Assembly: GCF_000813965.1 (NCBI RefSeq)
Contig: NZ_JWLI01000002.1
Coordinates: 62,001 to 126,000, forward strand
Source: Leisingera sp. ANG-M7
Lineage (GTDB): Bacteria; Pseudomonadota; Alphaproteobacteria; Rhodobacterales; Rhodobacteraceae
Direction of reading: 5' to 3'
DNA length: 64,000 bases
Part shown: one piece after another, positions 16,171 through 37,221 of the stretch
Layout: each line of letters opens with the position of its first letter
Position numbering within the stretch: the stretch's first letter is position 1
Translations under genes and position numbers: made by a program
The notes under the pieces: model-generated
Database searches by the model: none
The model's input: the letters and a program-made list of their open reading frames with translations, nothing else
Told to the model about the DNA's origin: nothing

Positions 16171-16211
16171 AGAAGAGCAGAGAAAACAGGACAGGAGGCA
16201 CGTAGCAGGCA

Positions 16212-16264: not shown

Positions 16265-16351
16265 ACCTTTGGAATAGCCCTTCAGACTCCTTAGTGTCAA
16301 CTCCATGCGCTGCATGGGGGCGGGAATTCTTTGTCTTTCGTGAAAATAATC

Positions 16352-19266: not shown

Positions 19267-20475
19267 GTGACTGGCAACTATGTTCTGACATGCGCCAAGC
19301 TGGCCACGATGGCCGGCTCAGATGCGCCTTACGGGCTGATTGAGGACGGGGCCGTTGCGGTTTCGGACGGGAAAATCGTCTGGGCCGGGCCGCGGCAGGA
19401 ATTGTCAGCTGACAATTTTCCCTGGAAGCATGTTGATCTGGACGGGCGGCTGGTGACACCGGGTCTGATCGACTGCCATACCCATATCGTCTTCGGCGGC
19501 AACCGCGCGATGGAGTTCGAGATGCGCCTGAATGGCGCTTCCTATGAGGAAGTCGCAAGGGCAGGGGGCGGCATCGTCTCCACCGTCTCCGCCACCCGCG
19601 AGGCCGCGCTGGAGGATCTGGTGCAGGGCGCGCTGCCGCGTCTGGATGCACTGATTGCCGAAGGCGCCACGGTGGTGGAGGTGAAATCCGGCTACGGGCT
19701 GGACCTGAAAACCGAGCTGAACATGCTGCGCGCTGCCCGCCGCCTCGGTGAATTGCGCCCGGTCACGGTGAAAACCACCTTCCTTGGCGCCCATGCGACG
19801 CCCGGCGAATACAAAGGCCGGGACGACGACTACATCGATCAGGTCTGCATCCCCGCCCTGCGCGCCGCCCATGCGGAGGGGCTGGTGGATGCAGTTGACG
19901 GCTTCTGCGAAAACATCGCCTTTGCCTCCGCGCAGATCGAACGGGTTTTCAAGGTAGCACGGGAGCTGGGCCTGCCGGTGAAACTGCACGCCGAGCAGCT
20001 GAGCCATCAGGGCGGCACCGCTCTGGCCGCACGTTACGGCGCGTTGTCCGTCGATCACGTGGAATACGCCACCGAAGACGACGCCAGGGCGATGGCCGCA
20101 TCGGGTTCTGCTGCGGTGATCCTGCCCGGCGCCTTCTACACTATCCGCGAAACCCAGATGCCGCCAATTGAGCACTTCCGCACCCACGGCGTGCCGATGG
20201 CGCTGGCGACCGACTGCAATCCGGGTTCCTCGCCGCTGACCTCGCTGCTCTTGACGATGAACATGGGCTGCACCCTGTTCCGCATGACACCCGAGGAAGC
20301 GCTGGCAGGCGTCACCTGCAACGCAGCCCGCGCGCTGGGACTGGCAGACCGCGGCCAGATCGCCGTCGGCATGCGCGCCGATCTGGCGGTTTGGGACGTG
20401 GAAACGCCCGGCGAGCTCGCCTACCGCATCGGCTTCAACCCGCTTTACACCCGTATCTATGAGGGAAAACGATGA
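19267..20475 (+). CDS. hutI: Imidazolonepropionase
   Basis: HutI (402 residues) hydrolyses 4-imidazolone-5-propionate to N-formimino-L-glutamate in histidine breakdown. The amidohydrolase metal site '[12 protein letters not shown]', '[17 protein letters not shown]', '[12 protein letters not shown]' and '[33 protein letters not shown]' are all HutI signatures. A GTG start follows GGGGAG. Remarkably, codons about 44-50 read through a perfect 18-bp parS-like palindrome, which encodes Leu-Ser-Ala-Asp-Asn. The ATGA overlap with hutH shows tight coupling. Confidence 0.95.
19400..19417. repeat. parS-like palindrome 4, inside the hutI coding sequence
   Basis: A perfect 18-bp palindrome with the same TTGTCAGCTGACAA core as the three sites behind repC. 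It is about 1.9 kb from repC and lies in hutI near codon 47, where it encodes residues LSADN in a variable surface-strand region before '[14 protein letters not shown]'. Confidence 0.75.
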
Positions 20476-21995
20476 TCGAGATGATCCCCGGCACGGTAAC
20501 GCTGTCCACGCTGGAAGATATCTACCGCAACCTGACTCCGGCCAGGCTGGATGCTTCGGCGCGTGAGCCGGTGGAAGCTGCGGCCCGGATGGTGGCCGAG
20601 GCGGCAGCGGGAGAGGACGCCGTCTATGGTATCAACACCGGCTTCGGAAAATTGGCCTCGACCAAGATCGCGCCGGCTGACACCGCCACCCTGCAGCGCA
20701 ACCTGATCCTCAGCCATTGCTGCGGGGTAGGGGAGGCGCTGCCGGAGGACAAGACCCGGCTGATGATGACGCTGAAACTCTTGTCGATGGGCCGCGGCGC
20801 GTCGGGCGTGCGCTGGCTGGTGATCGAACAGATCGAACAGATGCTGGAGCGCGGCGTGGTGCCGGTGATCCCGTCGCAGGGCTCCGTAGGCGCCTCTGGC
20901 GACCTGGCGCCGCTGGCGCATATGGCGGCAGCGATGATCGGGGCAGGGGAGGCCACGTTCGAAGGCACCCGCATGGCCAGTGCGGAAGCGCTGAAAAAGG
21001 CCGGGTTAGAGCCTATTGTACTGGGTCCCAAGGAAGGCCTGGGGCTGATCAACGGCACCCAGTTCTCCACCGCCTGCGCGCTGGGTGGGCTGTTCGACGC
21101 CTGGCGCCTGGCTGAGGCGTCGATGGCGATTGCCTCGCTCACCACCGACGCCATCATGGGCTCCACCGCGCCCCTGGTGGCCGACATCCACTCCCTGCGC
21201 GGCCATGCCGGGCAGATTGACGTTGCGCGGGAAATGCGCGGCATCATGGACGGATCGGAAATCCGCGAAAGCCACCGCGAGGGCGACACGCGCGTGCAGG
21301 ACCCGTACTGCATCCGCTGCCAGCCGCAGGTAGTGGGCGCGGCGCTGGACGTGCTGCGGATGGCCGCCAGGACGCTGGAGATCGAGGCCAACGCCGTTAC
21401 CGACAACCCGCTGGTGCTGGTGAATGAGGGGCGGATCGTTTCGGGCGGCAACTTCCACGCTGAATATGTGGGCTTTGCCGCTGACCAGATCGCGCTGGCG
21501 GTGGCCGAAATCGGCGCCATCGCGCAGCGCCGGGTGGCGCTGATGGTGGACCCGACCTTGAGCCACGACCTGCCGCCGTTCCTGACGCCCGATCCGGGCC
21601 TCAACTCCGGTTTCATGATTGCCGAGGTGACCACCGCCGCGCTGATGAGCGAGAACAAGCATCTGGCCAACCCTTGCGTGACCGACTCGACCCCCACGTC
21701 GGCCAACCAGGAGGACCACGTGTCGATGGCCGCCCACGGCGCGCTGCGTCTGGCGAAGATGAACGCCAACCTGTCGGTGATCCTGGGCGTTGAAATGCTC
21801 TGTGCAGCACAAGGGGTGGAGGCGCGCGCACCGCTGCAAACCTCGGCCCGCCTGCAGGACGTTCTGGCAATGCTGCGCGCCGATATCCCCTCGCTGGCAG
21901 AGGACCGCTATCTGGCGCCCGACATCGAGGCTGCCAGTGCCATGGTCCGCTCGGGCCGGGTAGCGGAGGCCGCAGGCGTAAAGGTGGCGGCATGA
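20472..21995 (+). CDS. hutH: Histidine ammonia-lyase
   Basis: HutH (507 residues) removes ammonia from L-histidine to give urocanate. The Ala-Ser-Gly triad that forms the MIO electrophile is in '[14 protein letters not shown]' near residues 140-142. Other family marks are '[14 protein letters not shown]', '[15 protein letters not shown]', '[25 protein letters not shown]' and '[10 protein letters not shown]'. It starts within the hutI stop (ATGA) and ends within the hutG start (ATGA), so the four hut genes form a tightly coupled operon. Confidence 0.96.
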
Positions 21996-22777
21996 TCGAA
22001 GTGACCCAAGGCGCCTCGCCGTTGGTGCTGGGGCTGCCCCACACCGGCACCGATGTGCCGCCGGAAATCTGGGACCGCCTCAATGAGACGGGCAGGGCGC
22101 TGGCGGATACCGACTGGCATATCCACGACCTGTATTCCGGGCTGGCAGGGGACATAACAACCGTCCGCACGCCGATCCACCGCTATGTGATCGACGTGAA
22201 CCGCGATCCGGGTGGTATCAGTCTCTATCCAGGGCAAAACACCACCACTCTGGTGCCGCTCACGGATTTTGACGGGCTGCCGATCTGGCAGGAGGGCAAG
22301 GAACCCGATGAGGCGGAGATCACCCGCCGCCGCGACGCTTATCACGCGCCCTATCACGCGGCGCTGATGGCGGAGCTGCAGCGGGTGAAGGCGATCCACG
22401 GCTTTGCCATCCTCTATGACTGCCATTCGATCCGCGGCGATATTCCCTTCCTGTTCGAAGGCCGCCTGCCGGATTTCAACGTCGGCACCAACATGGGCGA
22501 AACCTGCGACGCGTCGATCGAGGCGCTGACCGTGGCCCATTGCGAGGCGGCGGATGGCTATACCTCCACCCTCAACGGGCGTTTCAAGGGGGGCTGGACC
22601 ACCCGCCATTACGGGCGCCCAGCGGACGGGCTGCACGCGATCCAGATGGAACTGGCGCAGGCGACCTACTGCCAGGAAAGCCCGCCCTGGACCTATATGC
22701 CGGAGCGCGCGGAACAACTGCGCGCCCATCTCACCAAAATCCTGACTGATCTCAAAAACTGGAGGCCCTCGGCATGA
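21992..22777 (+). CDS. hutG: N-formylglutamate amidohydrolase (deformylase)
   Basis: The 261-residue protein belongs to the N-formylglutamate amidohydrolase family: '[18 protein letters not shown]', '[28 protein letters not shown]', '[20 protein letters not shown]', '[26 protein letters not shown]' and '[14 protein letters not shown]'. It makes glutamate and formate from N-formylglutamate. This branch needs HutF (formiminoglutamate deiminase), which was not seen in the window. The alternative, direct hydrolysis of formiminoglutamate, uses an unrelated arginase-type enzyme. Overlaps ATGA with both neighbours. Confidence 0.93.
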
Positions 22778-24456
22778 GCGATCCCCGCAAGAACACCCGC
22801 GACATCTTCCCGCCCACCGGCCCGGAAATCACCGCCAAGCATTGGGTCACCGAGGCGCCGATGCGGATGATGATGAACAACCTGCACCCCGACGTCGCGG
22901 AAAACCCGCATGAGCTGGTGGTGTACGGCGGCATCGGCCGCGCCGCGCGGACCTGGAAGGATTTCGACCTGATCGTCGAGACCCTGAAGAACCTCGACGA
23001 GGACCAGACCCTGATGGTGCAGTCCGGCAAGCCGGTTGGCGTGTTCCAGACCCACAAGGACGCGCCGCGGGTGCTGATCGCCAACTCCAACCTGGTGCCG
23101 CATTGGGCCAACTGGGACCACTTCAACGAGCTCGATAAGAAGGGGTTGATGATGTACGGCCAGATGACGGCCGGCTCCTGGATCTATATCGGCACGCAGG
23201 GCATCGTGCAGGGCACCTATGAGACCTTTGCCGAGGCCGGCCGCCAGCATTACGGCGGCGACCTCAAGGGCAAGTGGATCCTGACCGGCGGCCTCGGCGG
23301 CATGGGTGGCGCGCAGCCGCTGGCAGCCGTGTTTGCCGGTGCCTGCTGCCTGGCGGTAGAGTGCAACCCGGACAGCATCGACTTCCGCCTGCGCACCAAA
23401 TACCTGGACGAGAAGGCCGAGACCCTGGACGAGGCGCTGGAGATGATCGAACGCTGGACCGCCGCGGGCGAGGCGAAATCCGTGGGTCTCTTGGGCAACG
23501 CGGCAGAGATCTTCCCGGAGCTGGTGAAGCGCGCCGAAGCAGGCGGAATCCGCCCCGACATCGTGACCGACCAGACCTCCGCCCACGACCCTGTCAACGG
23601 CTACCTGCCGCTGGGCTGGACCATGGGTGAGTGGAAGGAGCGCCGCGAGAGTGACAAGAAAGCGGTGGAAAAGGCCGCCCGCGCCTCGATGAAAGTTCAG
23701 GTCAAGGCGATGTGCGATTTCCACGCGATGGGTGTTCCCACCGTGGATTACGGCAACAACATCCGCCAGATGGCGCTGGAAGAGGGGCTGGAGAACGCCT
23801 TTGACTTCCCCGGTTTCGTGCCCGCCTATATCCGCCCGCTGTTCTGCAAGGGCATCGGCCCGTTCCGCTGGTGCGCGCTGTCGGGCGACCCGGAGGACAT
23901 CCGCAAGACCGACGCCAAGATGAAGGAGCTGTTCCCCGAGAATGAAGGCCTGCATCGCTGGCTGGACATGGCGCAGGAGCGCATTGCGTTTCAGGGCCTG
24001 CCCGCGCGGATCTGCTGGATCGGTCTCGGCGACCGCCACAAGGCCGGCCTCGCGTTCAACGAGATGGTCCGCAACGGCGAGCTGTCGGCGCCGGTGGTGA
24101 TCGGCCGCGACCACCTGGATTCGGGCTCTGTGGCGTCCCCGAACCGCGAGACAGAGGCGATGATGGATGGCTCCGACGCTGTCTCCGACTGGCCGCTGCT
24201 GAACGCGCTTTTGAACACCGCCTCCGGTGCCACCTGGGTGTCGCTGCACCACGGCGGCGGCGTTGGCATGGGCTTCTCGCAGCATTCCGGCGTGGTGATC
24301 TGCTGTGACGGCACCGAGGACGCCGACCGCCGTATCGGCCGCGTGCTGTGGAACGACCCGGCCACCGGCGTCATGCGCCACGCAGATGCGGGGTACGATA
24401 TCGCCAAAGACCATGCCAAGGCCTGCGGCCTGAACCTGCCTGGCATTCTGGGCTGA
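22774..24456 (+). CDS. hutU: Urocanate hydratase
   Basis: HutU (560 residues) converts urocanate to imidazolonepropionate with NAD+ as a bound electrophile. The sequence follows the family from '[26 protein letters not shown]' through '[30 protein letters not shown]', the Rossmann-like '[15 protein letters not shown]', '[14 protein letters not shown]' and '[16 protein letters not shown]', to the end '[20 protein letters not shown]'. It is the last hut gene, followed by a strong hairpin terminator. Order I-H-G-U differs from the Pseudomonas hutUHIG arrangement. Confidence 0.96.
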
Positions 24457-24483: not shown

Positions 24484-24517
24484 TAGCCGGTTTCCAGTGA
24501 GGAGACCGGCTATTTTT
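24484..24517 (+). terminator. Terminator of the hut operon
   Basis: Twelve-base-pair stem (24484-24495 with 24501-24512, one G-U pair, 5-nt loop) is followed by five T residues. The stop codon of the convergent GntR gene is inside the right arm, so the element sits exactly between the convergent units. Confidence 0.88.
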
Positions 24518-25184
24518 CTTGCAACAGGCGCTCTGCGGTATGTTTGGCGTCGCTCAGATGCTGTTCGATGGCGGTGCGTGCGGCTTCTGTATTGCCTGAC
24601 ACGATGGCCTCGCAGATGTCCTGCATATGGGCAGGACCGGGCTTCTGGCGATCCGCTGTTGAGAGCGTCACCGCCCGCAGCCGGCTGATGCGTCCGTTCA
24701 GACGCTGGGCGATTTCCCAGGCGACGTTGTGGCCGGCGCCGTCGAAAATGATCCGGTAGAACTCTGTCGTGGCGCGCAGCATCGGGGTGGGCACGCCTGC
24801 CGCCACGGCCTCTTGCAGCTCAAGCAGCGCGGCCTTCAGCTGTACTGTCAGCTCCGGCGTGATGTTTTGGGTGCAGGCGGTGGCGGCTGCGGTCTCCAGC
24901 ATCTGGCGGATGTCGTAGATCTGCCGCGCGTCGGCCCAAGTGAGCTGCGCCACAATCGGGCCCTTGCCGGGCAGGATCTCCACCAGCCCCTCCGCCTCCA
25001 GGTAGCGGATCGTTTCGCGCACCACGGTGCGGCTGACGCCAAGCTGGTCGCACAGGGGCCGCTCCACCAGCCGTTCGCCGGGGGCAAACTGGCCGGAGAT
25101 GATCGCCTCGCGCATCCGTTCCTGCACGATATCGCGCAGGGTCTGCGGCTGGTGGTCGATTTTGCTCATGATGGGGCTGGTCAT
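24510..25184 (-). CDS. GntR-family transcriptional regulator, FCD domain
   Basis: The 224-residue regulator has an N-terminal winged helix ('LRDIVQERMREAIISGQFAPGERLVERPLCDQLGVSRTVVRETIRYLEAEGLVEILPGKGPIV') and FCD domain ('ARQIYDIRQMLETAAATACTQN', 'FYRIIFDGAGHNVAWEIAQRLNGRISRLR'). ATG 25184 is chosen because GGAGG lies five bases upstream; the longer frame has no such site. It converges on hutU but diverges from the AA_synth cassette, and a perfect ATGGTATACCAT dyad lies in that cassette's promoter. Its target is therefore probably the cassette and not hut. Confidence 0.9.
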   Translation of the reverse strand: MTSPIMSKIDHQPQTLRDIVQERMREAIISGQFAPGERLVERPLCDQLGVSRTVVRETIRYLEAEGLVEILPGKGPIVAQLTWADARQIYDIRQMLETAAATACTQNITPELTVQLKAALLELQEAVAAGVPTPMLRATTEFYRIIFDGAGHNVAWEIAQRLNGRISRLRAVTLSTADRQKPGPAHMQDICEAIVSGNTEAARTAIEQHLSDAKHTAERLLQEK

Positions 25185-25227
25185 AAGTCCTCCGATAGCA
25201 ACCGGGGCAGGGCGGAACAAGGCTGCA

Positions 25228-25257
25228 TTGACATACTGTATGATGGTATACCATATT
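25228..25257 (+). promoter_or_regulatory. Promoter of the AA_synth cassette with embedded GntR operator
   Basis: TTGACA (25228-25233) and CATATT (25252-25257) are 18 bp apart. The spacer and -10 are covered by the perfect 12-bp palindrome ATGGTATACCAT (25243-25254). A repressor bound there would exclude RNA polymerase. The dyad has the size and TnGTnnACnA-like form used by FCD GntR proteins, and such a gene diverges from this promoter. Confidence 0.65.
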
Positions 25258-25291
25258 ACGGCAACTGGAATCAGACAGGAAAGATCCGCCG

Positions 25292-25894
25292 ATGCCCGCC
25301 GAAATCCGCAAGACGCTGCTGCATGTCGAAGAAACCCTGATCGAGGGCGGCAAGGCAGCTGAAACGCCGCTGAAAATGATTGCCGCGGTGGCGGTGATCA
25401 AAAACCCCTGGGCCGGGCAGGGCTTTGTCGAGGACCTGCGCCCGGCGATCCAAGACTGCGCGCCGGGTCTGGGCGAGAAGCTGACGGCGATGGTGCTGGA
25501 GGCCGCAGGCGGCGGCGATAAGGTTGAGGGCTACGGCAAATCCGCCATCGTCGGGGTGAATGGCGAGGTGGAACATGCCTCTGCCCTCATCCACACGCTG
25601 CGCTTTGGCAACCACTTCCGCGAGGCGGTGGGGGCGAAATCCTATCTGGCCTTCACCAATACCCGCGGGCCCGCGAACGCCTCGCTGCAAATCCCGCTGA
25701 TGGACAAGAACGACGGCGGGCGGCGCAGCCACTACCTGACCATCCAGCTGTCGGTGGCCGATGCGCCTGGACCGGATGAGATCGTGATTGCGCTTGGCGC
25801 CTCCATCGGCGGGCGGCCGCATCACCGGATCGGCGACCGCTATCAGGACCTGAAGGAACTGGGCCATGACGTCGACAACCCTGCCGCTGTCTGA
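25292..25894 (+). CDS. AA_synth-family (DUF1185) protein
   Basis: A 200-residue soluble protein of the 'amino acid synthesis' family (Pfam PF06684), recognisable from 'EIRKTLLHVEETLIEGGKA', 'AAVAVIKNPWAGQGFVEDL', 'VEGYGKSAIVGVNGEVEHASALIH' and 'IVIALGASIGGRPHHRIGDRYQD'. Biochemical function is not established to my knowledge, in spite of the family name. From memory its fold is in the same structural class as RidA/YjgF proteins, which would make it a possible counterpart of RutC in pyrimidine ring breakdown. It leads the operon; the next gene starts 29 bp before its stop. Confidence 0.85.
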   Translation: MPAEIRKTLLHVEETLIEGGKAAETPLKMIAAVAVIKNPWAGQGFVEDLRPAIQDCAPGLGEKLTAMVLEAAGGGDKVEGYGKSAIVGVNGEVEHASALIHTLRFGNHFREAVGAKSYLAFTNTRGPANASLQIPLMDKNDGGRRSHYLTIQLSVADAPGPDEIVIALGASIGGRPHHRIGDRYQDLKELGHDVDNPAAV

Positions 25895-26669
25895 GCCTTA
25901 CGGCCCTGCTGCCTGCCTCAGGGCAGGGGAGGGGTCTCCGCTGGTGCTGATCCACGGGGTCGGCATGCAGTCGGCGGCCTGGGGGCCGCAGATCGAGGCT
26001 TTTGCGCAGACCCATGAGGTCATCGCGCTGGATATGCCCGGCCATGGCGGCAGCGCGCCGCTGCCGGAGGGTACAGAACTGCCGGACTATGTGGCCTGGC
26101 TGCATGCCGTGCTGCAGGCGCTGGATCTGGAGCCGGTCAGTCTGGCGGGCCATTCCATGGGCGCGCTGATTGCCGGCGGCTATGCTGTCAGCCATCCGGA
26201 AAACGCGGCCCGCGTGGCGCTGCTGAACGGGGTGTTCCGCCGTTCGGCTGACGCACGGGCTGCGGTTGAGGCGCGGGCTGCGGAAATCCGCGCAGGCAGT
26301 TTTGATCTGGAAACACCGCTGGCGCGGTGGTTCGGGGAGAGAGAGGCCGACCAAGCGGCGCGGGCGCAGGTGGGTGAATGGCTGTCGGGCGTGGACCTGG
26401 CGGGTTACGCCGCCGCCTATACCGCCTTTGCCTGCGGCGACAGCACCTATGCGGACGGCTTTGCGGGCATCCGCTGCCCGCTGCTTGCGCTGACCGGCGA
26501 TGGCGATCCGAACTCGACACCCGCGATGGCACAGGCCATGGCGGATGCCGCGCCGCAGGGCAGGGCGGTTGTCATCGAAGGCCACCGGCATATGGTCAAC
26601 CTGACCGCCCCCGCAGAGGTCAACGCCGCCCTGCAGGACTGGCTGGATACGGAAGGAGCAACGTCATGA
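25866..26669 (+). CDS. Alpha/beta-fold hydrolase (RutD-like role)
   Basis: The 267-residue hydrolase has the oxyanion region 'LVLIHGVGMQSAAWGPQ', 'ALDMPGHGGSAP', the nucleophile elbow 'GHSMGAL' (Ser about residue 97), the acid in 'LTGDGDPNSTP', and the catalytic histidine in 'EGHRHMVNLTAP'. A lid region spans about 120-195. In operons with a luciferase-type monooxygenase and a flavin reductase, such hydrolases usually cleave an amide, carbamate or ester made by ring opening (RutD hydrolyses aminoacrylate-type intermediates). The actual substrate is unknown. Overlaps its neighbours on both sides. Confidence 0.85.
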   Translation: MTSTTLPLSEPYGPAACLRAGEGSPLVLIHGVGMQSAAWGPQIEAFAQTHEVIALDMPGHGGSAPLPEGTELPDYVAWLHAVLQALDLEPVSLAGHSMGALIAGGYAVSHPENAARVALLNGVFRRSADARAAVEARAAEIRAGSFDLETPLARWFGEREADQAARAQVGEWLSGVDLAGYAAAYTAFACGDSTYADGFAGIRCPLLALTGDGDPNSTPAMAQAMADAAPQGRAVVIEGHRHMVNLTAPAEVNAALQDWLDTEGATS

Positions 26670-27592
26670 GCGAGATCGACCCGCGCGCCCTGCGCAATGC
26701 ATTCGGTACTTTCATGACCGGCGTCACCGTGGTGACAACGCATGACCCCGAGGGAAACCCCATCGGCTTTACCGCCAACTCCTTTACCTCCGTGTCGCTG
26801 GACCCGCCGCTGGTGCTGGTCTGCATTGCCAATTCCTCCAGCAACTACGCCGCGTTCGAGCAGGCCGAGGGCTTTGCCGTCAATGTGCTGGCGGAGGACC
26901 AGAAGGACGTCTCCAACACCTTTGCCCGCCCGGTCGAGGACCGTTTTGCCGCCGTCAGCTGGCAGAAGGGGCCTGAGGGCAGCCCGGTGTTCGAGGGCGT
27001 TTCCGCCTGGTTCGACTGTTCCATGCACAACCGGGTTGAGGCGGGCGACCACCTGATCCTGATCGGACGGGTTGAGGCGTTTGAGACCTCGCCAGCGCCG
27101 GGACTGGGATATGCCCGCGGCGCCTATGTGACGGCCGCGGCGGAGGCCGAGGCCCTGACCCAAGGCGCCAAGCTGATCGTCTCGGCATTGATCGAGCATG
27201 AGGGCAAGGTGCTGCTCATGGGCAACGACCAGGGCAAGCTGACGCTGCCGGAAATCCGGGTCGGCAAGGAGGGCGCCTCTGCCGCCCTGGCCAAGCTGAT
27301 CGCGGACACCGGTGTCGAGGCGGAGCCGGGGTTCATTTATTCCGTCTACGAAGACAAAGCGCGCGAACATCAGCACATCTCGTTTCTATGCCAATCGGCC
27401 GGCGGCACACCGGCCAAGGGTGTTTTCACGGCACTGACCCAATCCACGCTGATGGACATTGCCGACGCGGCGATGTGCACCATGCTGGAGCGGTTTGCCA
27501 GTGAGGCCCGGATGGGCAATTTCGGGGTGTATTATGGCAATCAGACCACCGGGCAGGTCCGCCCCGTGGCGACAGGGAGCAAGGGCGCATGA
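26666..27592 (+). CDS. Flavin reductase with C-terminal degenerate Nudix-like domain
   Basis: Residues 1-165 are a flavin reductase-like FMN-binding domain ('LRNAFGTFMTGVTVVTTHDPEGNPIGFTANSFTSVSLDPPLVLVCI' and 'DHLILIGRVEAF'), as in RutF and HpaC. The remaining 140 residues are extra: about 170-245 ('IVSALIEHEGKVLLMGNDQGKLTLPEIRVGKEGASAALAKLIADTGVEAEPGF') look like a Nudix fold, but the Nudix box has lost its catalytic glutamates (AKLIAD where REXXEE is expected). It should supply reduced flavin to the adjacent monooxygenase; the extra domain may bind a nucleotide or heterocycle. ATGA overlap with the hydrolase gene. Confidence 0.82.
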   Translation: MSEIDPRALRNAFGTFMTGVTVVTTHDPEGNPIGFTANSFTSVSLDPPLVLVCIANSSSNYAAFEQAEGFAVNVLAEDQKDVSNTFARPVEDRFAAVSWQKGPEGSPVFEGVSAWFDCSMHNRVEAGDHLILIGRVEAFETSPAPGLGYARGAYVTAAAEAEALTQGAKLIVSALIEHEGKVLLMGNDQGKLTLPEIRVGKEGASAALAKLIADTGVEAEPGFIYSVYEDKAREHQHISFLCQSAGGTPAKGVFTALTQSTLMDIADAAMCTMLERFASEARMGNFGVYYGNQTTGQVRPVATGSKGA

Positions 27593-28626
27593 AATTTTCC
27601 CTCTTTGCGCATATGGAGCGGATTTCCGCGGCAGACGACCAGAAGCGGCTTTATGACGAGTTCATCCAGCTGTGCAAAATCGCCGATGACGGCGGCATGC
27701 ACGCGGTCTGGACCGGCGAACACCACGGGATGAATTTCACCATCTCGCCGAACCCGTTTCTGAACCTCATTGACGTGGCGCGGCACACCAAGAACGTGCG
27801 GCTGGGGACGGGGACGGTGATTGCGCCGTTCTGGCATCCGATCCGGCTGGCGGGCGAGGCGGCGATGACCGATATTATCACCGACGGCCGCCTGGATCTG
27901 GGCATCGCGCGCGGGGCGTACTCCTATGAATACGAACGCATGATGCCGGGCATGGACGCCTGGGAGGCGGGCCAGCGGATGCGCGAGCTGATCCCGGCGG
28001 TTCAGGGACTTTGGCAAGGCGATTACGCGCAGGAAGGGGAATTTCATTCCTTCCCGAAAACCACATCCTCGCCCAAGCCGGTGCAGCAGGACGGCCCGCC
28101 GATCTGGGTGGCGGCGCGCGATCCCAACAGCCATGAATTTGCCGTGGCCAACGGCTGCAACGTGCAGGTGACGCCGCTGTGGAAGGGTGATGAGGAAATC
28201 ACCGACCTGATGGGCAAGTTCAACGATGCCTGCGCCAAGCACGCCGATGTGCCGCGGCCTAAGATCATGCTGCTGCAGCACACCTATGTCGCGGACAGCG
28301 CGGCGGACGTGAAACGCGGGGCGGAGGAACTGAACCGGTTCTACTGCTATTTCGGTGCCTGGTTCATGAACAAGCGGGACGTCAGCCAGGGCCTGATTGA
28401 TCCCCTGAGCGACGAAGAGATCGCGGCGCATCCGTTCTACAGCCCCGAGGCGATGGAACGCGATCTGGTGATCGGCGAACCCGCGGCAGTGATCGAGCGG
28501 CTGAAAAAGTATGAAGCCCTCGGCTATGATGAATACTCGTTCTGGATCGACAGCAGCATGAGTTTCGAGCGCAAGAAAGCCTCGCTTGAGCGGTTCATCA
28601 CCGAAGTCATGCCCGCGTTTCAGTAA
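27589..28626 (+). CDS. Luciferase-like (LLM-class) flavin-dependent monooxygenase
   Basis: At 345 residues this is a bacterial-luciferase-type TIM barrel: 'MKFSLFAHMERIS', 'GMHAVWTGEHHGMNFTISPNPF', 'KNVRLGTGTVIAPFWHPIRLAGEAAMTDIITDGRLDLGIARG', 'PPIWVAARDPNSHEFAVANG' and 'VIGEPAAVIERLKKYEALGYDEYSFWID'. These enzymes use free FMNH2 or FADH2 from a separate reductase, which is encoded immediately upstream with a 4-bp overlap. Relatives open N-heterocycles (RutA on uracil, PyrA on pyridine) or oxidise alkanesulfonates and other small molecules. In this cassette ring opening followed by hydrolysis and aldehyde oxidation fits best (inference). Confidence 0.88.
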   Translation: MKFSLFAHMERISAADDQKRLYDEFIQLCKIADDGGMHAVWTGEHHGMNFTISPNPFLNLIDVARHTKNVRLGTGTVIAPFWHPIRLAGEAAMTDIITDGRLDLGIARGAYSYEYERMMPGMDAWEAGQRMRELIPAVQGLWQGDYAQEGEFHSFPKTTSSPKPVQQDGPPIWVAARDPNSHEFAVANGCNVQVTPLWKGDEEITDLMGKFNDACAKHADVPRPKIMLLQHTYVADSAADVKRGAEELNRFYCYFGAWFMNKRDVSQGLIDPLSDEEIAAHPFYSPEAMERDLVIGEPAAVIERLKKYEALGYDEYSFWIDSSMSFERKKASLERFITEVMPAFQ

Positions 28627-28638
28627 GGGAGCCTGAGA

Positions 28639-30102
28639 ATGCAGACCTTCCAGCAGTACATCGGCGGTGCGTTTGAGGACGCAGGGGAAACCTTCGAGAC
28701 CCTCGATCCGGCCACCGGCAAACCCTGGGCGCAGATGCCTGCCGCGTCACCGGCGGATGTGGACCGGGCGGTGCGGGCGGCGGAGGCTGCGTTCTTCTCG
28801 CCTGAATGGGCCGGGATGACCGCCACCCAGCGCGGCAAGCTGCTCATGCGGCTGGCCGATCTGGTGGCGGAACACGCGCCTAAGCTGGCAGAGCTGGAAA
28901 CCCGCGACACCGGCAAGATCATCCGGGAGACTTCGGCCCAGATTGCTTATGTGGCGGAGTATTACCGCTATTACGCAGGCCTCGCCGACAAGATCGAGGG
29001 CGCGCATCTGCCGATCGACAAGCCCGACATGGAGGTCTGGCTGCGGCGCGAGCCGGTGGGCGTGGTGGCGGCCATCGTGCCGTGGAACTCGCAGCTGTTC
29101 CTGTCCGCTGTCAAGATCGGCCCGGCGCTGGCGGCGGGCTGTACGGTTGTGCTGAAAGCGTCGGAGGAAGGCCCGGCACCAATGCTGGAATTTGCCCGGA
29201 TCTTTGATCAGGCGGGTTTTCCGGCTGGCGTCCTGAACGTGATCACCGGCGGGCCGGAGGCGGGTGCCGCGCTGACCAGCCACGCGGGTGTTGCCCATGT
29301 GGCCTTTACCGGCGGGCCGGAGACCGCGCGTCATATCGTGCGCAATTCGGCGGAAAACCTCGCCTCCACCTCGCTGGAGCTGGGCGGCAAGTCGCCTTTC
29401 ATTGTGTTTGACGACGCCGATCTGGAAAGTGCGGTGAATGCGCAGGTCTCCGGCATATTCGCGGCCACCGGGCAAAGCTGCGTCGCAGGATCGCGGCTGG
29501 TGATCCAGAAGGGGATCAAGGATGCGTTTCTTGCGCGGCTGAAGGAGAAAGCCGAAGCGGTGGTGATCGGCGCGCCGGATGACATGGCAACCGAAGTGGG
29601 GCCGCTTTGTACCCTGAAACAGCGCGACCATGCGCTGCGGCTGATCGAGGCTTCGGCTCAGGCCGGCGCCAAAGTTGTCACCGGCGGCGCAGCTCTGGAA
29701 GGGCAGGGGTTCTTCTTCCCGCCTACGGTTCTGGATTGCTCCGATGCGCCGGAGGCTCCCTGCTTGTCGAATGAATTCTTCGGCCCGGTCTTGTCGGTGG
29801 TGGACTTCGAGACCGAGGCAGAGGCCCTGGAGATTGCCAACAACACAGCCTTCGGCCTAGCCTCGGGTGTGTTCACCCGGAACCTCACCCGCGCGCACCG
29901 GATGATCCGGGGCATCCGGGCCGGTATTGTCTGGGTCAACACCTACCGCGCGGTCAGCCCGATTGCCCCCTTTGGCGGCCACGGCCTGTCGGGCCACGGG
30001 CGCGAGGGCGGGCTGCAGGCGGCGCTGGATTACACCAAGGTGAAGGCAGTCTGGCTGCGCACCAGCGACGATCCGATCCCCGACCCCTTTGTGATGCGCT
30101 GA
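28639..30102 (+). CDS. Aldehyde dehydrogenase
   Basis: The 487-residue NAD(P)-aldehyde dehydrogenase carries 'AAIVPWNSQLFLSAVKIGPALAAG', 'FTGGPETARHIV', general base Glu in 'LELGGKSPFIV', catalytic Cys in 'ATGQSCVAGSRL', and 'NEFFGPVLSVVDF'. It closes the operon, 12 bp after the monooxygenase. By analogy with pyridine and pyrimidine ring-cleavage routes it would oxidise a semialdehyde (succinate or malonate semialdehyde type) released after hydrolysis. A dispersed intergenic repeat follows its stop. Confidence 0.9.
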   Translation: MQTFQQYIGGAFEDAGETFETLDPATGKPWAQMPAASPADVDRAVRAAEAAFFSPEWAGMTATQRGKLLMRLADLVAEHAPKLAELETRDTGKIIRETSAQIAYVAEYYRYYAGLADKIEGAHLPIDKPDMEVWLRREPVGVVAAIVPWNSQLFLSAVKIGPALAAGCTVVLKASEEGPAPMLEFARIFDQAGFPAGVLNVITGGPEAGAALTSHAGVAHVAFTGGPETARHIVRNSAENLASTSLELGGKSPFIVFDDADLESAVNAQVSGIFAATGQSCVAGSRLVIQKGIKDAFLARLKEKAEAVVIGAPDDMATEVGPLCTLKQRDHALRLIEASAQAGAKVVTGGAALEGQGFFFPPTVLDCSDAPEAPCLSNEFFGPVLSVVDFETEAEALEIANNTAFGLASGVFTRNLTRAHRMIRGIRAGIVWVNTYRAVSPIAPFGGHGLSGHGREGGLQAALDYTKVKAVWLRTSDDPIPDPFVMR

Positions 30103-30282: not shown

Positions 30283-30489
30283 ATGAGTGACGCGGTTTAC
30301 AAGACAGTGGATGTGGTCGGCAGTTCGCAGTCCAGCATCGAGGATGCCATCAGCGGGGCCATTGCCCGCGCATCCAAGACCATTGACCACATCGGCTGGT
30401 TCGAGGTTGGAGAGATCCGCGGCCATGTCGAGGACGGCAAGGTCGCCCATTTTCAGGTCGGCTTGAAGATCGGGTTCCGGCTGGATTGA
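30283..30489 (+). CDS. Dodecin, flavin-storage protein
   Basis: The 68-residue protein begins MSDAVYKTVDVVGSSQSSIE and contains 'AISGAIARASKTIDHIGWFEVGEIRGHVEDGKVAHFQVGLKIGFRLD'-type sequence, which is the dodecin family throughout, including the flavin-stacking Trp in 'GWFEV' and the Q in 'HFQVG'. Dodecins form hollow dodecamers that hold flavin dimers and buffer free flavin. AGGAGG six bases upstream fixes the start at 30283; an ATG at 30115 in the same frame is in the intergenic repeat and was rejected. Its place right after a two-component flavin monooxygenase operon is suggestive. Confidence 0.93.
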   Translation: MSDAVYKTVDVVGSSQSSIEDAISGAIARASKTIDHIGWFEVGEIRGHVEDGKVAHFQVGLKIGFRLD

Positions 30490-31495: not shown

Positions 31496-32482
31496 TCAGT
31501 CGCGCCCGCTACCGCGGGTTCTCTGCACCCAGGGTTTTTCCTGTCCCCGCGCCTCGCGGATGGTCCGGCCGAAATGCCCGCTGAACGATCGCCCGAGTGA
31601 GGAGGCAGAGGAAAACCCGCAGCGCAGGGCAATCTGCTCCAGGCTCAGATGGGTTTCCTCCGACAGGTAGCGGGCGTGCTGGAGCCGCAGCATCTTGTAG
31701 TATTTCCCTGGCGTCATGCCCAGTTCACGCTGGAATGCGCGCGCCAGCGTGCGTTCGGACAGCGACACGCGCTTGGCCAGCGCCGCCGTGCTCATCGGGG
31801 TTTCGATGGTCTCTGCCATCAGGTTTGCCGCCTTCAGGATCTTGGGCGAGCCGCGCTGCTCCAGCCGCGCCGCGCCGCGGTTCAGCTCAGACTGGCGCGA
31901 GGGGTCATAAACGAACATGGTCGAGGCGCCGAAGGCGGCGGCAGAGCCGTAGAGATCCTGAATGAGGCTTAGCATCATGTCGAGGGCAGTGCTGGCGCCG
32001 CCGCAAGTGAGGAACGCGCAGGAGCGTACAAACCGCGCGGTGGAGACCTCCACTTGGGGAAAGGTCTCGGCAAAGGCATCCAGCTCCTGCCAGTGGATCG
32101 TGGCTGTATGGCCGTCCAGCACCCCGGCCGCAGCCAGCAGCCATGCGGCGGTATCCAGCGCCAGTACCGGCTTGGCAGCCCGTGTGGCGGTCCGGAGTTT
32201 GGCCAGCAGCGCTGGCGTCACTTGTTCGCGCACATGGTAGCCTGCGACCAGTACCAAGGTGCGGTTTCCCTGACGTTCGTCAAAGACGCCATCGGGAGTG
32301 ATCTGCAGCCCGCTGGAGCTGCGCACCGGCGCCCCGTCCAGCGTGGTGACACGCCATCCGGCAACATCCTGGCCCGCGCTCATCCGCACGTCGCGCAGCG
32401 GCTCCATGGCGCTGGCCAGCACCATGTTGGAAAACCCGTCGAACAGCAGGAATTCGAATAGGGGAGGCTGATTTGGCGGCAT
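31496..32482 (-). CDS. GATase1-like/AraC-type regulator of carnitine breakdown (CdhR-like)
   Basis: This 328-residue GlxA-family protein has a DJ-1/PfpI-like domain (about 1-195, 'FEFLLFDGFSNMVLASAMEPLRDVR', 'VLALDTAAWLLAAAGVLDGHTATIHWQ') and a C-terminal AraC DNA-binding domain ('STAALAKRVSLSERTLARAFQRELG', 'LEQIALRCGFSSASSLGRSFSGHFG'). Pseudomonas CdhR has this build and activates the carnitine operon; here the gene diverges from exactly such an operon. ATG 32482 fits the family N-terminus; a longer frame starts at a TTG inside the divergent control region and was rejected. It lacks a clear ribosome site. Confidence 0.87.
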   Translation of the reverse strand: MPPNQPPLFEFLLFDGFSNMVLASAMEPLRDVRMSAGQDVAGWRVTTLDGAPVRSSSGLQITPDGVFDERQGNRTLVLVAGYHVREQVTPALLAKLRTATRAAKPVLALDTAAWLLAAAGVLDGHTATIHWQELDAFAETFPQVEVSTARFVRSCAFLTCGGASTALDMMLSLIQDLYGSAAAFGASTMFVYDPSRQSELNRGAARLEQRGSPKILKAANLMAETIETPMSTAALAKRVSLSERTLARAFQRELGMTPGKYYKMLRLQHARYLSEETHLSLEQIALRCGFSSASSLGRSFSGHFGRTIREARGQEKPWVQRTRGSGRD

Positions 32483-32524
32483 TTGTCTGTTTTTTGACCG
32501 AAACTGTATAAACGCAGCGTCAAC

Positions 32525-32545
32525 TCCTGCGCTAATCACGCAGGA
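32525..32545. promoter_or_regulatory. Inverted repeat between cdhR-like gene and carnitine operon
   Basis: TCCTGCG-N7-CGCAGGA has perfect 7-bp arms and is centred in the 117-bp gap between the divergent genes. It is a good candidate for the regulator's binding site. Confidence 0.5.
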
Positions 32546-32599
32546 AGTCAAGCACCTTGACGATCCGCCGACGACCGCTCTCTAACCACTGATACCTCC

Positions 32600-34546
32600 A
32601 TGACCACCGCTCCTCTCCTCTGGCAGCCGGGCCTTTCGGCGCGCCGCAAACCTTTGCTGTCCGGTTTCATGTCGCAGGCTTCTGCGATCGTCGGAACACC
32701 GCTGGACAGCTTTGCCGGTCTGCACGCCTGGTCGGTTGCGCAGCCGCAGGACTTCTGGCCGCTGGCCTGGGACTTCTGCGGGCTGGAGGGCGATCAGGGC
32801 ACGGTTCCGCTGCTGGCCAATCGGGACCCGATGCAGGTCCGCTTCTTCCCCGAAGCGCGGCTGAACATCGCGGAGACATTCCTGAAGAACGCTGACGGGC
32901 GCGAGGCAATTGTGTTCATCGGCGAGGATGGCCGCCGCATGGCCTGGACCCGCGCCGATCTGAAGCGTGAGGTGGAAATGCTGGCCGCCGCGCTGCGGGA
33001 CGCGGGGATCGGCGCAGGCGACCACGTTGCCGGCTATGTGCCGAACATGCCGCAGACCGTGGCGGCGATGCTGGCGACCGCCTCGCTGGGGGCGGTCTGG
33101 TCATCCTGCGCGCCGGAAAGCGGGCCTGATGTGGTGGTCGACCGCTTCGGCCAGATCGAACCCAAGCTGATGTTTGCCGCCGACGGCTATTTCTACAACG
33201 GCAAGGTGTTTGAGACCCGCGCCGCCATTGCAGAGGTTGCCGCACGAGTGCCTTCGATTCAGCAGATCGTGGTCTGGCCTTACGCAGGCGATGCCGCGGA
33301 TTTGCCGGAGAGCATGACCGCCTATGACGCGTTCAAACAGGCGGACGCCCCGGCACTGGACTGCAGGCCGATGGGCTTTCGCGATCCGCTCTATGTGATG
33401 TTCTCCTCCGGCACCACCGGCAAGCCCAAGTGCATCGAGCATTCCGGCGGTGGCACCCTGCTGCGGATGCTGGTGGAGCAGCAGCTGCACTGCGACCTGC
33501 GCCCGGGCGACCGGATGTTCTATTACACCACCTGCAACTGGATGATGTGGAACTGGCAGGTGGCGGCGCTGGCCTCCGAGGCCGTGATCGTGCTGTTTGA
33601 CGGCAATCCGATGTATCCGGGCATGCGCCGCCTGTTCGACCTGGCGGAGGCGGAGAAGGTCACGCATTTTGGTATTTCCGCCAAATACATCGATGCTTCA
33701 CAAAAGCGCCGCAACCGGCCTGCGGACAGCCATGACCTGGCTGCGCTGCGGGTGGTTCTGTCCACCGGCTCGCCGCTGTCGCCCGAGGGCTTTGCCCATG
33801 TCTATGCCGACTGGAAGGCGGATGTGCAGCTGGCTTCGATCTGCGGCGGCACCGATATTCTGGGCTGTTTCATCGGCGGCTGCCCGCTGCTGCCGGTGCA
33901 CCAGGGCGAGATCCAGGCGCCGATGCTGGGGCTGGATGTGGCGACCCTGAACGATCAGGGCGAACCGGTTGAAGGTGTGGCGGGCGAGCTGGTCTGCCGC
34001 AATGCGCATCCGTCGATGCCGACGTGCTTCCTGAACGACGCGGGCGATGCCCGCTACCGCGCCAGCTATTTCGAGACCTATCCCAATATCTGGCGGCAGG
34101 GCGATTTCACCATCCGCACGGAACACGGCGGATATGTGGTGCTGGGGCGCTCGGACGCGACGCTGAACCCCGGCGGCGTGCGGATCGGCACGGCGGAGAT
34201 CTACCGGCAGCTCGACAAGATCGACGAGGTCGCGGATGCGGTGGTTGTCGGCCAAAGCTTCGACAACGACGTGCGGGTGGTTCTGTTTGTGGTTCCCGCC
34301 GAAGGTGCTGCGCTGGATGATGCGCTAACTGCCCGGATCAAAACGGAAATCCGCAAGAACGCCTCGCCGCGCCATGTGCCCGCGAAAATCATAGCCGTCG
34401 CAGACATCCCGCGCACCAAATCCGGCAAGACCGCCGAGCTGGCGGTGCGGGACGTGGTGAACAAACACCCTGTCCGCAACCTCTCCGGCATCGCCAATCC
34501 GCAGGCGCTGGCGCTGTTTGCGGATCACCCTGAATTGCAAGCTTAA
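32600..34546 (+). CDS. Acetoacetyl-CoA synthetase (acetoacetate-CoA ligase)
   Basis: The 648-residue AMP-forming ligase has 'LYVMFSSGTTGKPKCIEHSGGG', 'YYTTCNWMMWNWQVAALASEA', 'LASICGGTDILGCFIGGCP' and 'GRSDATLNPGGVRIGTAEIYRQLDKIDEVADAVVVGQ', and the C-terminal lysine region 'IPRTKSGKTAELAVRDVV'. The acetoacetate-CoA ligase subfamily is recognised by its length and the N-terminal 'FWPLAWDFCGL' part. In the carnitine route the cleavage enzyme downstream releases acetoacetate, which this enzyme re-activates for use as two acetyl-CoA. It is first in the operon and 18 bp before the cleavage enzyme gene. Confidence 0.92.
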   Translation: MTTAPLLWQPGLSARRKPLLSGFMSQASAIVGTPLDSFAGLHAWSVAQPQDFWPLAWDFCGLEGDQGTVPLLANRDPMQVRFFPEARLNIAETFLKNADGREAIVFIGEDGRRMAWTRADLKREVEMLAAALRDAGIGAGDHVAGYVPNMPQTVAAMLATASLGAVWSSCAPESGPDVVVDRFGQIEPKLMFAADGYFYNGKVFETRAAIAEVAARVPSIQQIVVWPYAGDAADLPESMTAYDAFKQADAPALDCRPMGFRDPLYVMFSSGTTGKPKCIEHSGGGTLLRMLVEQQLHCDLRPGDRMFYYTTCNWMMWNWQVAALASEAVIVLFDGNPMYPGMRRLFDLAEAEKVTHFGISAKYIDASQKRRNRPADSHDLAALRVVLSTGSPLSPEGFAHVYADWKADVQLASICGGTDILGCFIGGCPLLPVHQGEIQAPMLGLDVATLNDQGEPVEGVAGELVCRNAHPSMPTCFLNDAGDARYRASYFETYPNIWRQGDFTIRTEHGGYVVLGRSDATLNPGGVRIGTAEIYRQLDKIDEVADAVVVGQSFDNDVRVVLFVVPAEGAALDDALTARIKTEIRKNASPRHVPAKIIAVADIPRTKSGKTAELAVRDVVNKHPVRNLSGIANPQALALFADHPELQA

Positions 34547-34564
34547 CCCCAAAGGAGCGAGACC

Positions 34565-35482
34565 ATGCCCCTGACCATGAACCGAGACGTCTTCATCACT
34601 GCCGCCGTGACCGGCTCTGGCGGCACCCAGGACAAATCCCCCCATGTGCCGCGCTCACCCAAGCAGATCGCCGAGTCCGCAATCGCGGCCGCCAAGGCCG
34701 GTGCGGCGGTGGTTCACTGCCATGTGCGCGACCCTGAAACCGGCGCGCCGTCCCGGAAACTTGAGTATTACCGGGAGCTTACCGACCGCATCCGCGATTC
34801 CGAAGTTGACGTGGTGCTGAACCTGACCGCGGGCATGGGCGGCGACATCGTGTTCGGCTCGACCGAAGCGCCGCTGCCGGTCAACGAAGCCGCGACCGAC
34901 ATGATCGGCGCCACCGAGCGGATGGCCCATATCGCGGAATGCCTGCCGGAAATCTGCACCCTCGACTGCGGCACCATGAATTTTGCCGAGGCCGATTACG
35001 TGATGACCAACACGCCCGGCATGCTGCGGGCAATGGGCCAGATGATGACCGATCTGGGCGTGAAGCCGGAGATCGAGGCCTTTGACACCGGCCACCTGTG
35101 GTTTGCCAAGCAACTGGTAAAGGAGGGCATTCTGGAGCCGAACGCGCTGGTGCAGTTGTGCATGGGGGTGCCGTGGGGGGCGCCGAACGACCTCAACACC
35201 TTCATGGCGATGGTCAACAATGTGCCGTCGGACTGGACCTGGTCGGCGTTCTCCCTTGGCCGCGACCAGATGCCCTATGCGGCGCAGTCGGTGCTGGCGG
35301 GCGGCAACGTGCGGGTGGGCCTTGAGGACAACCTGTTCCTGGACAAGGGCGTGCTGGCCACCAACGCACAGCTTGTGGAGCGCGCGGTCGGCGTGATCGA
35401 GGGCATGGGCGCCCGGATCATCGGCCCGGAGGCGGTCCGTGAAAAGCTGGGCCTGACCAAGCGCGCGCCGGTGGCGAAGTAA
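34565..35482 (+). CDS. 3-dehydrocarnitine cleavage enzyme (BKACE family, CdhC-like)
   Basis: The BKACE (beta-keto acid cleavage enzyme, DUF849) protein has 305 residues: 'VFITAAVTGSGGTQDKSPHVPRSPKQIAESAIAAAKAGAAVVHCHVRDPETGAPSRKLEYYREL', with the Zn-binding HxH 'HCHVRD', 'LNLTAGMGGDIVFG', 'IEAFDTGHLWFAKQLV' and 'VRVGLEDNLFLDKGVLATNAQLVERA'. BKACE members differ by substrate; next to carnitine dehydrogenase the substrate is 3-dehydrocarnitine, which with acetyl-CoA gives betainyl-CoA and acetoacetate. AAAGGAG precedes ATG 34565. Confidence 0.9.
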   Translation: MPLTMNRDVFITAAVTGSGGTQDKSPHVPRSPKQIAESAIAAAKAGAAVVHCHVRDPETGAPSRKLEYYRELTDRIRDSEVDVVLNLTAGMGGDIVFGSTEAPLPVNEAATDMIGATERMAHIAECLPEICTLDCGTMNFAEADYVMTNTPGMLRAMGQMMTDLGVKPEIEAFDTGHLWFAKQLVKEGILEPNALVQLCMGVPWGAPNDLNTFMAMVNNVPSDWTWSAFSLGRDQMPYAAQSVLAGGNVRVGLEDNLFLDKGVLATNAQLVERAVGVIEGMGARIIGPEAVREKLGLTKRAPVAK

Positions 35483-35570
35483 GCCGAAATGCGGGGGTGC
35501 CATGCGTGCACCCCCTGTACACCCCCTGTGCACCGGCGGGCGCACGGGGAGGGCGATCAGAGGATAGATC

Positions 35571-36992: not shown

Positions 36993-36997
36993 CTTGG

Positions 36998-37032
36998 AAA
37001 CCCGGCGGCTCGCGCGCTGCCGGGTTTCTTTT
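36998..37032 (+). terminator. Terminator 1 after the carnitine operon
   Basis: Stem AAACCCGGC / GCCGGGTTT with a 12-nt loop, then CTTTT. It starts six bases after the dehydrogenase-thioesterase stop codon. Confidence 0.82.
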
Positions 37033-37033
37033 G

Positions 37034-37069
37034 CGGGCCGGGTCTCCTCCCCGATCCGGCCCGTTTTTT
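37034..37069 (+). terminator. Terminator 2 after the carnitine operon
   Basis: Stem CGGGCCGG / CCGGCCCG with a 14-nt loop, then six T residues. It is directly behind the first terminator, so the BCCT transporter gene must rely on its own promoter in the following 150 bp. Confidence 0.85.
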
Positions 37070-37221
37070 GAAGGTGTGCTGCCTGTAACCGCGGCAGCGG
37101 GGAGGACCATGCCGGAGCGCCGGGCCATCGGGAGAGCTTTCATCCCGCCGCGCGCTCCGCTCAGCTTTCCGCGGCTGGAGGGCCCCGGCGCTGAGGCATC
37201 AGAAACAATTGGGAGGACCAA

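Follow-up and report, generated by a model that had tools for sequence, protein, structure and literature searches.

A probable tgn-type operon for trigonelline degradation, with a predicted operator, in Leisingera sp. ANG-M7

Which compound is broken down by a compact gene cassette that combines a luciferase-type oxygenase, a flavin reductase and an AA_synth protein? Such a cassette is present in the stretch of DNA from the marine bacterium Leisingera sp. ANG-M7 that was analysed here (the window, 64,000 nucleotides). In the Leisingera and Ruegeria records examined, its genes are labelled by broad family names only. The class of substrate is no mystery: all five genes match the tgn genes of Acinetobacter baylyi, in the same order. 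Region 24510–30102 is probably a tgn-type operon for the degradation of trigonelline (N-methylnicotinate), with its substrate and products predicted from sequence, and looks like a formerly unlabelled copy of the pathway known from A. baylyi. What was annotated by family names can now be read as a predicted operon for trigonelline, with an operator open to experimental test.

Layout of the cassette

The features of the region are as follows (percentages are identities to A. baylyi unless stated otherwise):

24510..25184, minus strand: GntR/FCD regulator gene, divergent, 224 amino acids (PF07729 and PF00392; 48% to the counterpart)
25228..25257, plus strand: sigma-70-like promoter match TTGACA-N18-CATATT, a consensus match only, overlapping the palindrome
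25243..25254, no strand: palindrome ATGGTATACCAT, probable operator, between the GntR and AA_synth genes
25292..25894, plus strand: AA_synth/DUF1185 protein, TgnF homologue (PF06684, 235.6 bits against a cut-off of 27; 67%)
25866..26669, plus strand: alpha/beta-hydrolase in the TgnD position (PF00561; 53%)
26666..27592, plus strand: flavin reductase, TgnA homologue (PF01613; 51%)
27589..28626, plus strand: luciferase-type flavin monooxygenase, TgnB homologue (PF00296; 73%, and likewise 73% to PK01 tgnB)
28639..30102, plus strand: aldehyde dehydrogenase, TgnC homologue (PF00171; 70%)

The five cassette genes are complete, lie on the plus strand and are joined by overlaps of 29, 4 and 4 bases and a final spacing of 12 bases. 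They look like a single, presumably co-transcribed operon. The original prediction had described five overlapping or closely spaced genes, and these are real, with their families confirmed by Pfam profiles (the scan of the flavin reductase started at its second codon). Ser97, Asp214 and His242 of the hydrolase, whose gene in the tgn cluster we take to be TgnD, are conserved in more than 97% of 110 rows with more than 45% identity, and Cys281 and Glu247 of the aldehyde dehydrogenase in more than 97% of 113 rows with more than 60% identity.

The neighbourhood survey of PF06684 and LLM monooxygenases that had been proposed bears out the association. In a sample of 101 rhodobacteral genomes, each of the 29 homologous oxygenases has an AA_synth gene on its own strand no more than 3 kb upstream. 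Among 126 fetched loci with 130 oxygenase places, the same holds for 129; in the one exception, L081, the contig starts 1.8 kb from the oxygenase. The set is therefore far from chance. The suggested link to histidine is not supported: the hut genes stop at 24456, in convergent orientation to the GntR gene, and none are annotated near the cassette in the five non-Leisingera plasmid records examined.

Dodecin was considered as a flavin partner, but it adjoins the cassette in only 1 of 127 loci (L008, Leisingera) and was for this reason left out of the unit. In one of the five non-Leisingera plasmid records (L005), however, a gene named hisD is found 34 bases downstream of the cassette on the opposite strand.

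Kinship with the Acinetobacter tgn cluster and the predicted operator

Over its full length, the oxygenase matches at 73.3% the product of a gene annotated as tgnB on a plasmid of Acinetobacter sp. PK01, in a record where the gene names stem from automatic annotation. The neighbours of this gene are GntR, AA_synth, alpha/beta-hydrolase, tgnA and tgnC genes, in the order of the window. A. baylyi DSM 14961 (L014), whose locus we infer from species and homology to be the published tgn cluster, has the same arrangement. Identities of AA_synth, hydrolase, reductase, oxygenase and dehydrogenase to this locus are 67, 53, 51, 73 and 70%, compared with 64–68, 37–43, 40–41, 68–69 and 56–58% to three loci of a sister set of rhodobacteral cassettes. 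As a counter-point, AA_synth alone cannot separate the two sets (67% versus 64–68%). In the oxygenase tree, one clade of 62 rows includes A. baylyi (SH-aLRT 100, stem 0.41), with 18 sister oxygenases outside.

The original prediction had held that this was not the known pathway, but in content, order, clade and operator, the cassette matches the Acinetobacter tgn cluster. Its broader claim, that a two-component flavin oxygenase cassette opens an N-heterocycle, is very likely right. Its comparison with pyridine ring cleavage, the presumed parallel being the PyrA/PyrE cluster of Arthrobacter, also points in the right direction.

The GntR/FCD protein is the probable regulator of the cassette, and its gene occupies the equivalent position in most tgn-type loci. 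The palindrome ATGGTATACCAT is, judging from its sequence and conservation, probably the operator. Its exact form occurs once in the genome. Of the non-sister cassettes, 111 of 112 carry at least 10 of its 12 bases in their upstream region, compared with 0 of 18 sister cassettes and 3 of 560 shuffles; 12 of 12 bases are kept in the window and in PK01, and 11 of 12 in A. baylyi. Sigma-70-like matches in the region number 4, against 1.0 expected. The GntR protein would probably control the operon at this palindrome, presumably by repression. Both the GntR gene and the palindrome were missing from the original prediction.

The proposed route and its competitors

Trigonelline is widespread in plants and algae, and A. 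baylyi is a soil bacterium. The proposed steps are transferred from trigonelline breakdown in A. baylyi, as reportedly described by Perchat et al. in 2018. By this analogy, the flavin reductase would provide reduced flavin, and the luciferase-type oxygenase would cleave the C5–C6 bond of the N-methylpyridinium ring. Oxidation of the hydroxylactone/aldehyde product by the aldehyde dehydrogenase would give (E)-2-((N-methylformamido)methylene)succinate, from which the alpha/beta-hydrolase would set free formate, methylamine, CO2 and succinate semialdehyde. The semialdehyde stage would be assisted by AA_synth (TgnF), and a succinate semialdehyde dehydrogenase encoded outside the cassette would carry out the last step.

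A passage in PMC8269262 states that TgnA/TgnB cleaves open the trigonelline ring, and one in PMC7913881 relates TgnF to the DUF1185 proteins by homology and has it stimulate TgnE. The former paper also hinted at growth of Ruegeria pomeroyi on trigonelline, but this was dropped as support because correction PMC10134881 removes it. No oxygenase match was found on the R. pomeroyi megaplasmid, the replicon searched.

A point against the trigonelline reading is that a tgnE-type succinate semialdehyde dehydrogenase and an NCS1-type permease, which come next in Acinetobacter, were not found in the window cassette. A homologue of the dehydrogenase, with 56% identity to that of the PK01 cluster, is located on another contig of the genome. 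Many relatives in the clade also lack both genes in the stretch fetched, and a cluster-borne dehydrogenase and permease are treated here as a variable trait that does not define tgn.

The main rival substrate is homarine (N-methylpicolinate), a marine N-methylpyridinium acid that might be opened instead of, or alongside, trigonelline, although this is unlikely. C5–C6 cleavage, aldehyde oxidation and deformylation would lead to a 2-oxoglutarate enamine/imine and methylamine, and from there to N-methylglutamate. The operon name homABCDER, which we take to denote five genes and a regulator, would fit the cassette. Genes of the sox/mgd type adjoin some cassettes of the window's clade: sarcosine-oxidase-like genes adjoin five Acinetobacter cassettes (L003, L012–L015), that of A. 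baylyi included, and a partial set adjoins L149. Such neighbours would also suit a route via N-methylglutamate, and a 2026 paper, as cited in PMC13390433, concerns a conserved bacterial homarine pathway involving N-methylglutamate dehydrogenase (Mgd). Four full-length sox/mgd-alpha-like genes (33–37%) are found on other contigs of the genome. Against homarine, no sox/mgd genes are among the cassette-region genes scanned. Clade and palindrome are moreover shared with the trigonelline cluster of A. baylyi, and homarine is sterically unlikely for TgnA/TgnB according to an argument in PMC8269262, by authors whose growth data were withdrawn. The literature examined on marine metabolites and methylamines names no homarine genes.

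It is less probable still that the cassette in reality acts on a different pyridine or pyridinium acid (N-methylisonicotinate, another betaine or a nicotinate derivative, for example), for which tgn enzymes were recruited. Related oxygenases do diverge (the sister set and extra copies in Caballeronia), and 45 of 89 AA_synth matches lie beside 6-hydroxynicotinate reductase homologues. However, nicotinate clusters use a molybdenum hydroxylase and the reductase without a window-type oxygenase, and operator and gene set are conserved inside the window's clade.

Very improbable, finally, is the Rut-like cassette of the original prediction, in which AA_synth would stand in for RutC and a pyrimidine or other ring would be the substrate. 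Oxygenase, flavin reductase and alpha/beta-hydrolase are shared enzyme classes, and the models for RutD and RutF do give scores, but at 63.8 and 102.8 bits these are far under the curated cut-offs of 238.5 and 254.75, on which membership is rejected, and the tgn kin are much closer. No RutA model is among the best 25 of 26 families for the oxygenase, and, as had been noted, no RutB-type amidohydrolase is among the eight proteins scanned at and beside the cassette. In favour of the RutC role, the AA_synth fold is chorismate mutase-like according to the literature; the 50 listed of its 466 structure matches include no RidA/RutC chain and no chain of cyanuric acid hydrolase or barbiturase, the other folds proposed for comparison. 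RidA presumably has the same SCOP fold as AA_synth, so that the proposed likeness to RutC may hold at a loose level.

AA_synth and comparison with known systems

At E < 0.001, the AlphaFold model of AA_synth matches only chains of two solved DUF1185 proteins, 3byq (BB2672; TM 0.82 by query length, 37% identity) and 2qtp (SPO0826; TM 0.69 by query length, 32% identity), both described beside branched-chain amino acid genes. In the 101-genome rhodobacteral sample, 29 of the 89 PF06684 matches are in oxygenase cassettes which, together with those beside a 6-hydroxynicotinate reductase homologue, account for 74. The family thereby gains a consistent setting, which opens its reaction to direct test. 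In the nicotinate clusters, AA_synth is near the reductase in 26 of 28 cases, with tandem AA_synth pairs in 19 of 28, and a molybdenum hydroxylase and the reductase take the place of the window's flavin oxygenase. The curated models assign no family to this reductase homologue; its name is taken from 9 of the 12 plasmid records listed, while a hypothetical protein is given in the remaining 3.

Tentatively, PF06684 could be a dedicated catalyst of pyridine-carboxylate catabolism rather than of amino acid synthesis, and the LysR-linked sister cassette a second N-methylpyridinium pathway, a doubtful reading as a whole. AA_synth would then act on the open-chain aldehyde-acid after enamide hydrolysis, a stage that would be common to the trigonelline and 6-hydroxynicotinate routes. 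It would either open a cyclic hydroxylactone form of the semialdehyde or decarboxylate a 2-formyl dicarboxylate (2-formylsuccinate in the former route, 2-formylglutarate in the latter). The invariant Lys83, Glu94, His101, Arg110, His147 and Arg175 are candidate working residues.

The sister cassettes (18 fetched, e.g. L125 and L126) follow the window's gene order with AA_synth, hydrolase, oxygenase and dehydrogenase, and most of them have a flavin reductase too. They lack the palindrome, and their oxygenases are 65–70% identical to the window's, outside its clade. A LysR-type gene precedes AA_synth in L125 (by Pfam) and in L120, L126 and L129 (by sequence likeness). Mean oxygenase identity to the window's set is 64% for the sister set, with 8 group-specific positions between the two, and 60% for the Caballeronia extra copies. 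The two sets occur together in none of 63 genomes (E up to 1e-100), compared with about 4 of 244 expected if independent, given their presence in 28 and 35 of 244 genomes, and they could thus do the same job. A homarine label for the sister set, suggested by sox/mgd genes opposite 1 of the 18 sister loci (L125), was dropped because such genes flank window-clade cassettes too. A plasmid location was also rejected: among the matches listed, the L125 oxygenase comes closest, at 68.7%, to Leisingera cassettes of the window's set.

The closest known system to the predicted trigonelline operon is the tgn cluster of Acinetobacter. Its cassettes carry extras that the window cassette lacks (DUF1330, a cytosine permease, a hypothetical protein, a carboxymuconolactone-decarboxylase-like protein and a succinate semialdehyde dehydrogenase), and some also have sarcosine-oxidase-like genes. 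A. baylyi and PK01 share with the window cassette the order GntR, TgnF, hydrolase, TgnA, TgnB and TgnC and an operator-like palindrome, at 51–73% identity.

The cassette and its neighbours

The five genes of the original prediction were confirmed on the forward strand at the positions assigned to them. A regulator gene runs in the opposite direction, and a sigma-70-like match lies, with a perfect palindrome, between it and the AA_synth gene.

24510-25184, opposite in direction to the five cassette genes: GntR/FCD regulator
25243-25254: perfect palindrome ATGGTATACCAT
25292-25894, +: AA_synth
25866-26669, +: alpha/beta-hydrolase
26666-27592, +: flavin reductase
27589-28626, +: luciferase-type monooxygenase
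28639-30102, +: aldehyde dehydrogenase

Since three junctions overlap and the final gap is only 12 bases, the gene layout suggests that the five genes are likely to form a single transcript. Close relatives of the cassette sit on Leisingera plasmids of 145-356 kb and, together with the repABC-like genes described next, they make the contig probably a plasmid.

RepA/ParA-, RepB/ParB- and RepC-like genes of a repABC replicon, judged from their translations, are found at 14021-17494. The histidine-use genes hutI, hutH, hutG and hutU (19267-24456), whose order matches the annotation of Leisingera sp. S132 (L008), are positional neighbours of the cassette. Directly 3' of it is a dodecin gene (flavin storage family, 30283-30486), a position shared among the fetched loci by S132 only. 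The carnitine-type catabolic block at 31496-38913 includes, by likeness to S132, a GlxA-type regulator, an acetoacetate-CoA ligase, a 3-keto-5-aminohexanoate cleavage protein and a carnitine dehydrogenase, and ends with a transporter that appears by eye to be BCCT-like.

Genomic settings of AA_synth

AA_synth is a constant component of the cassette, encoded upstream of the oxygenase in 29 of 29 cases in a 101-genome rhodobacteral sample and in 129 of 130 among the fetched loci. Of the 89 AA_synth matches in that sample, 45 are at most 5 kb from a homologue of 6-hydroxynicotinate reductase (a name given by nine of the 12 plasmid records among the matches listed), while 15, three of them partial, are in neither setting. 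Conversely, 26 of 28 reductase homologues have AA_synth nearby, and 19 have two. Because of these neighbourhood counts, we conclude that the family tracks pyridine-carboxylate catabolism within Rhodobacterales. A molybdenum hydroxylase gene adjoins both reductase clusters scanned for one (L163 and L165). The trigonelline and 6-hydroxynicotinate routes would share an enamide intermediate, followed by either a 2-formyl dicarboxylate or a semialdehyde, and this common stage leads to the tentative reading of AA_synth as a catalyst of pyridine-carboxylate catabolism.

At four loci (L163, L165, L168 and L169) one AA_synth gene or a tandem pair adjoins the reductase homologue, and L163 and L169 encode an additional UPF0280-like protein (above the cut-off of NF003322). 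A second AA_synth gene of the Leisingera sp. ANG-M7 genome (L002, 1501-2016), 37% identical, has neither a cassette-type oxygenase nor a 6-hydroxynicotinate reductase homologue nearby.

The AlphaFold model of AA_synth has a mean pLDDT of 87.9, and its sole structure matches at E <0.001 are 3byq and 2qtp. PMC2954203 presents the fold and hexameric assembly of DUF1185 proteins and suggests a role in amino acid metabolism. A case outside the rhodobacteral pattern is the Pseudomonas coumarin cluster of PMC7913881; that paper cites Perchat et al. 2018 for the stimulation of TgnE by TgnF, the DUF1185 homologue of A. baylyi ADP1, an effect not visible for the authors' own protein.

Two oxygenase sets and the upstream palindrome

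The oxygenase was found at E up to 1e-100 in 63 of 244 rhodobacteral genomes sampled, with identities split in two: at least 73% in 28 genomes (its own included) and 65-70% in 35. Cassettes were fetched from 40 of the 63 (22 from the first set, 18 from the second). The window oxygenase and a chosen subset of the 131 extracted sequences, 81 in all, were placed in a tree (quick search, no bootstrap). It contains a 62-row clade (SH-aLRT 100, stem 0.41) in which the window oxygenase groups with that of A. baylyi and with all 22 from the first set; all 18 second-set oxygenases fall outside it. A very distant outgroup leaves the root uncertain. At eight positions the two sets differ consistently.

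The sister cassette, which carries the second-set oxygenase (L118-L134, L136), occurs in 35 of the 244 genomes, and in none of the 63 together with the window type. A LysR-type gene was seen at L120, L125, L126 and L129, and sox/mgd genes opposite the cassette at L125. Four Caballeronia loci (L044, L045, L048 and L049) carry two divergent cassettes back to back. Their additional divergent oxygenase copy, about 60% identical to the others, forms a long branch of uncertain placement within the window clade, and the second cassette may represent a paralogous pathway.

The palindrome was sought at 10 or more of 12 bases in the 160 bases 5' of each AA_synth match, counting the window as well as the extra copy of each of the four Caballeronia loci and excluding two matches below 60%. 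Outside the second set it was present in 111 regions out of 112 (the exception, L030, had nine); it was present in none of the 18 second-set regions (best nine) and in three of 560 mononucleotide shuffles; related rows are not independent in these counts, and the Caballeronia pair has one common intergenic region. Its conservation across Acinetobacter, Burkholderiales, Rhizobium and Leisingera, and the single exact occurrence in the 4.58-Mb genome, are a sign that palindrome-bearing cassettes may share a single type of regulator and respond to a single kind of inducer.

Proposed pathway and the Acinetobacter cluster

The A. baylyi tgn steps of Perchat et al. 2018 are reportedly flavin-dependent C5-C6 cleavage, aldehyde oxidation, hydrolysis and semialdehyde oxidation. 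Transferred from A. baylyi, the reductase would provide reduced flavin for the oxygenase, which would cleave the trigonelline ring oxidatively at C5-C6; the dehydrogenase would oxidise the aldehyde in its hydroxylactone form; hydrolysis would yield formate, methylamine, CO2 and succinate semialdehyde; and AA_synth would assist the final oxidation. The final dehydrogenase would be encoded outside the cassette, its best homologue elsewhere in the genome being at 56%. Ser97, Asp214 and His242 of the hydrolase and Cys281 and Glu247 of the dehydrogenase, the expected catalytic residues of their families, are retained in >97% of 110 and 113 aligned rows, respectively. Substrate and products in Leisingera sp. 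ANG-M7 are those suggested by analogy.

The predicted opening of an N-heterocycle stands, and trigonelline is the likeliest substrate. The rival is homarine, whose catabolism, with involvement of Mgd, is the subject of a 2026 paper cited in PMC13390433. According to PMC8269262, TgnA/TgnB open the trigonelline ring, and its authors argue that they would be hindered on homarine; the paper's R. pomeroyi growth remark was removed by correction (PMC10134881).

Among the best 60 of 1081 records in a plasmid-collection protein search with the window oxygenase, Leisingera plasmids come first (17 records, 91.9-98.3%), followed by Ruegeria and Thioclava. The same 60 include a full-length match (73.3%) from Acinetobacter sp. 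PK01, labelled in its own record as tgnB, the flavin-dependent trigonelline monooxygenase oxygenase component. Like the window, the PK01 plasmid carries GntR, AA_synth, alpha/beta-hydrolase, tgnA, tgnB and tgnC in identical order; tgnC is followed by genes for a cytosine permease, a hypothetical protein, a succinate semialdehyde dehydrogenase and a carboxymuconolactone-decarboxylase-like protein, and sarcosine-oxidase-like genes lie upstream of the cluster. A named-genome scan with the PK01 protein (best 80 of 559 confirmed relatives kept) included A. baylyi DSM 14961 (L014), which has the PK01 arrangement and which we infer, from species and homology, to hold the published trigonelline cluster. 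Identities between the window and L014 are 67% for AA_synth, 53% for the hydrolase, 51% for the reductase, 73% for the oxygenase and 70% for the dehydrogenase. The unknown Rut-like pathway first proposed is not supported, and the cassette is an unlabelled member of the already known tgn-type set.
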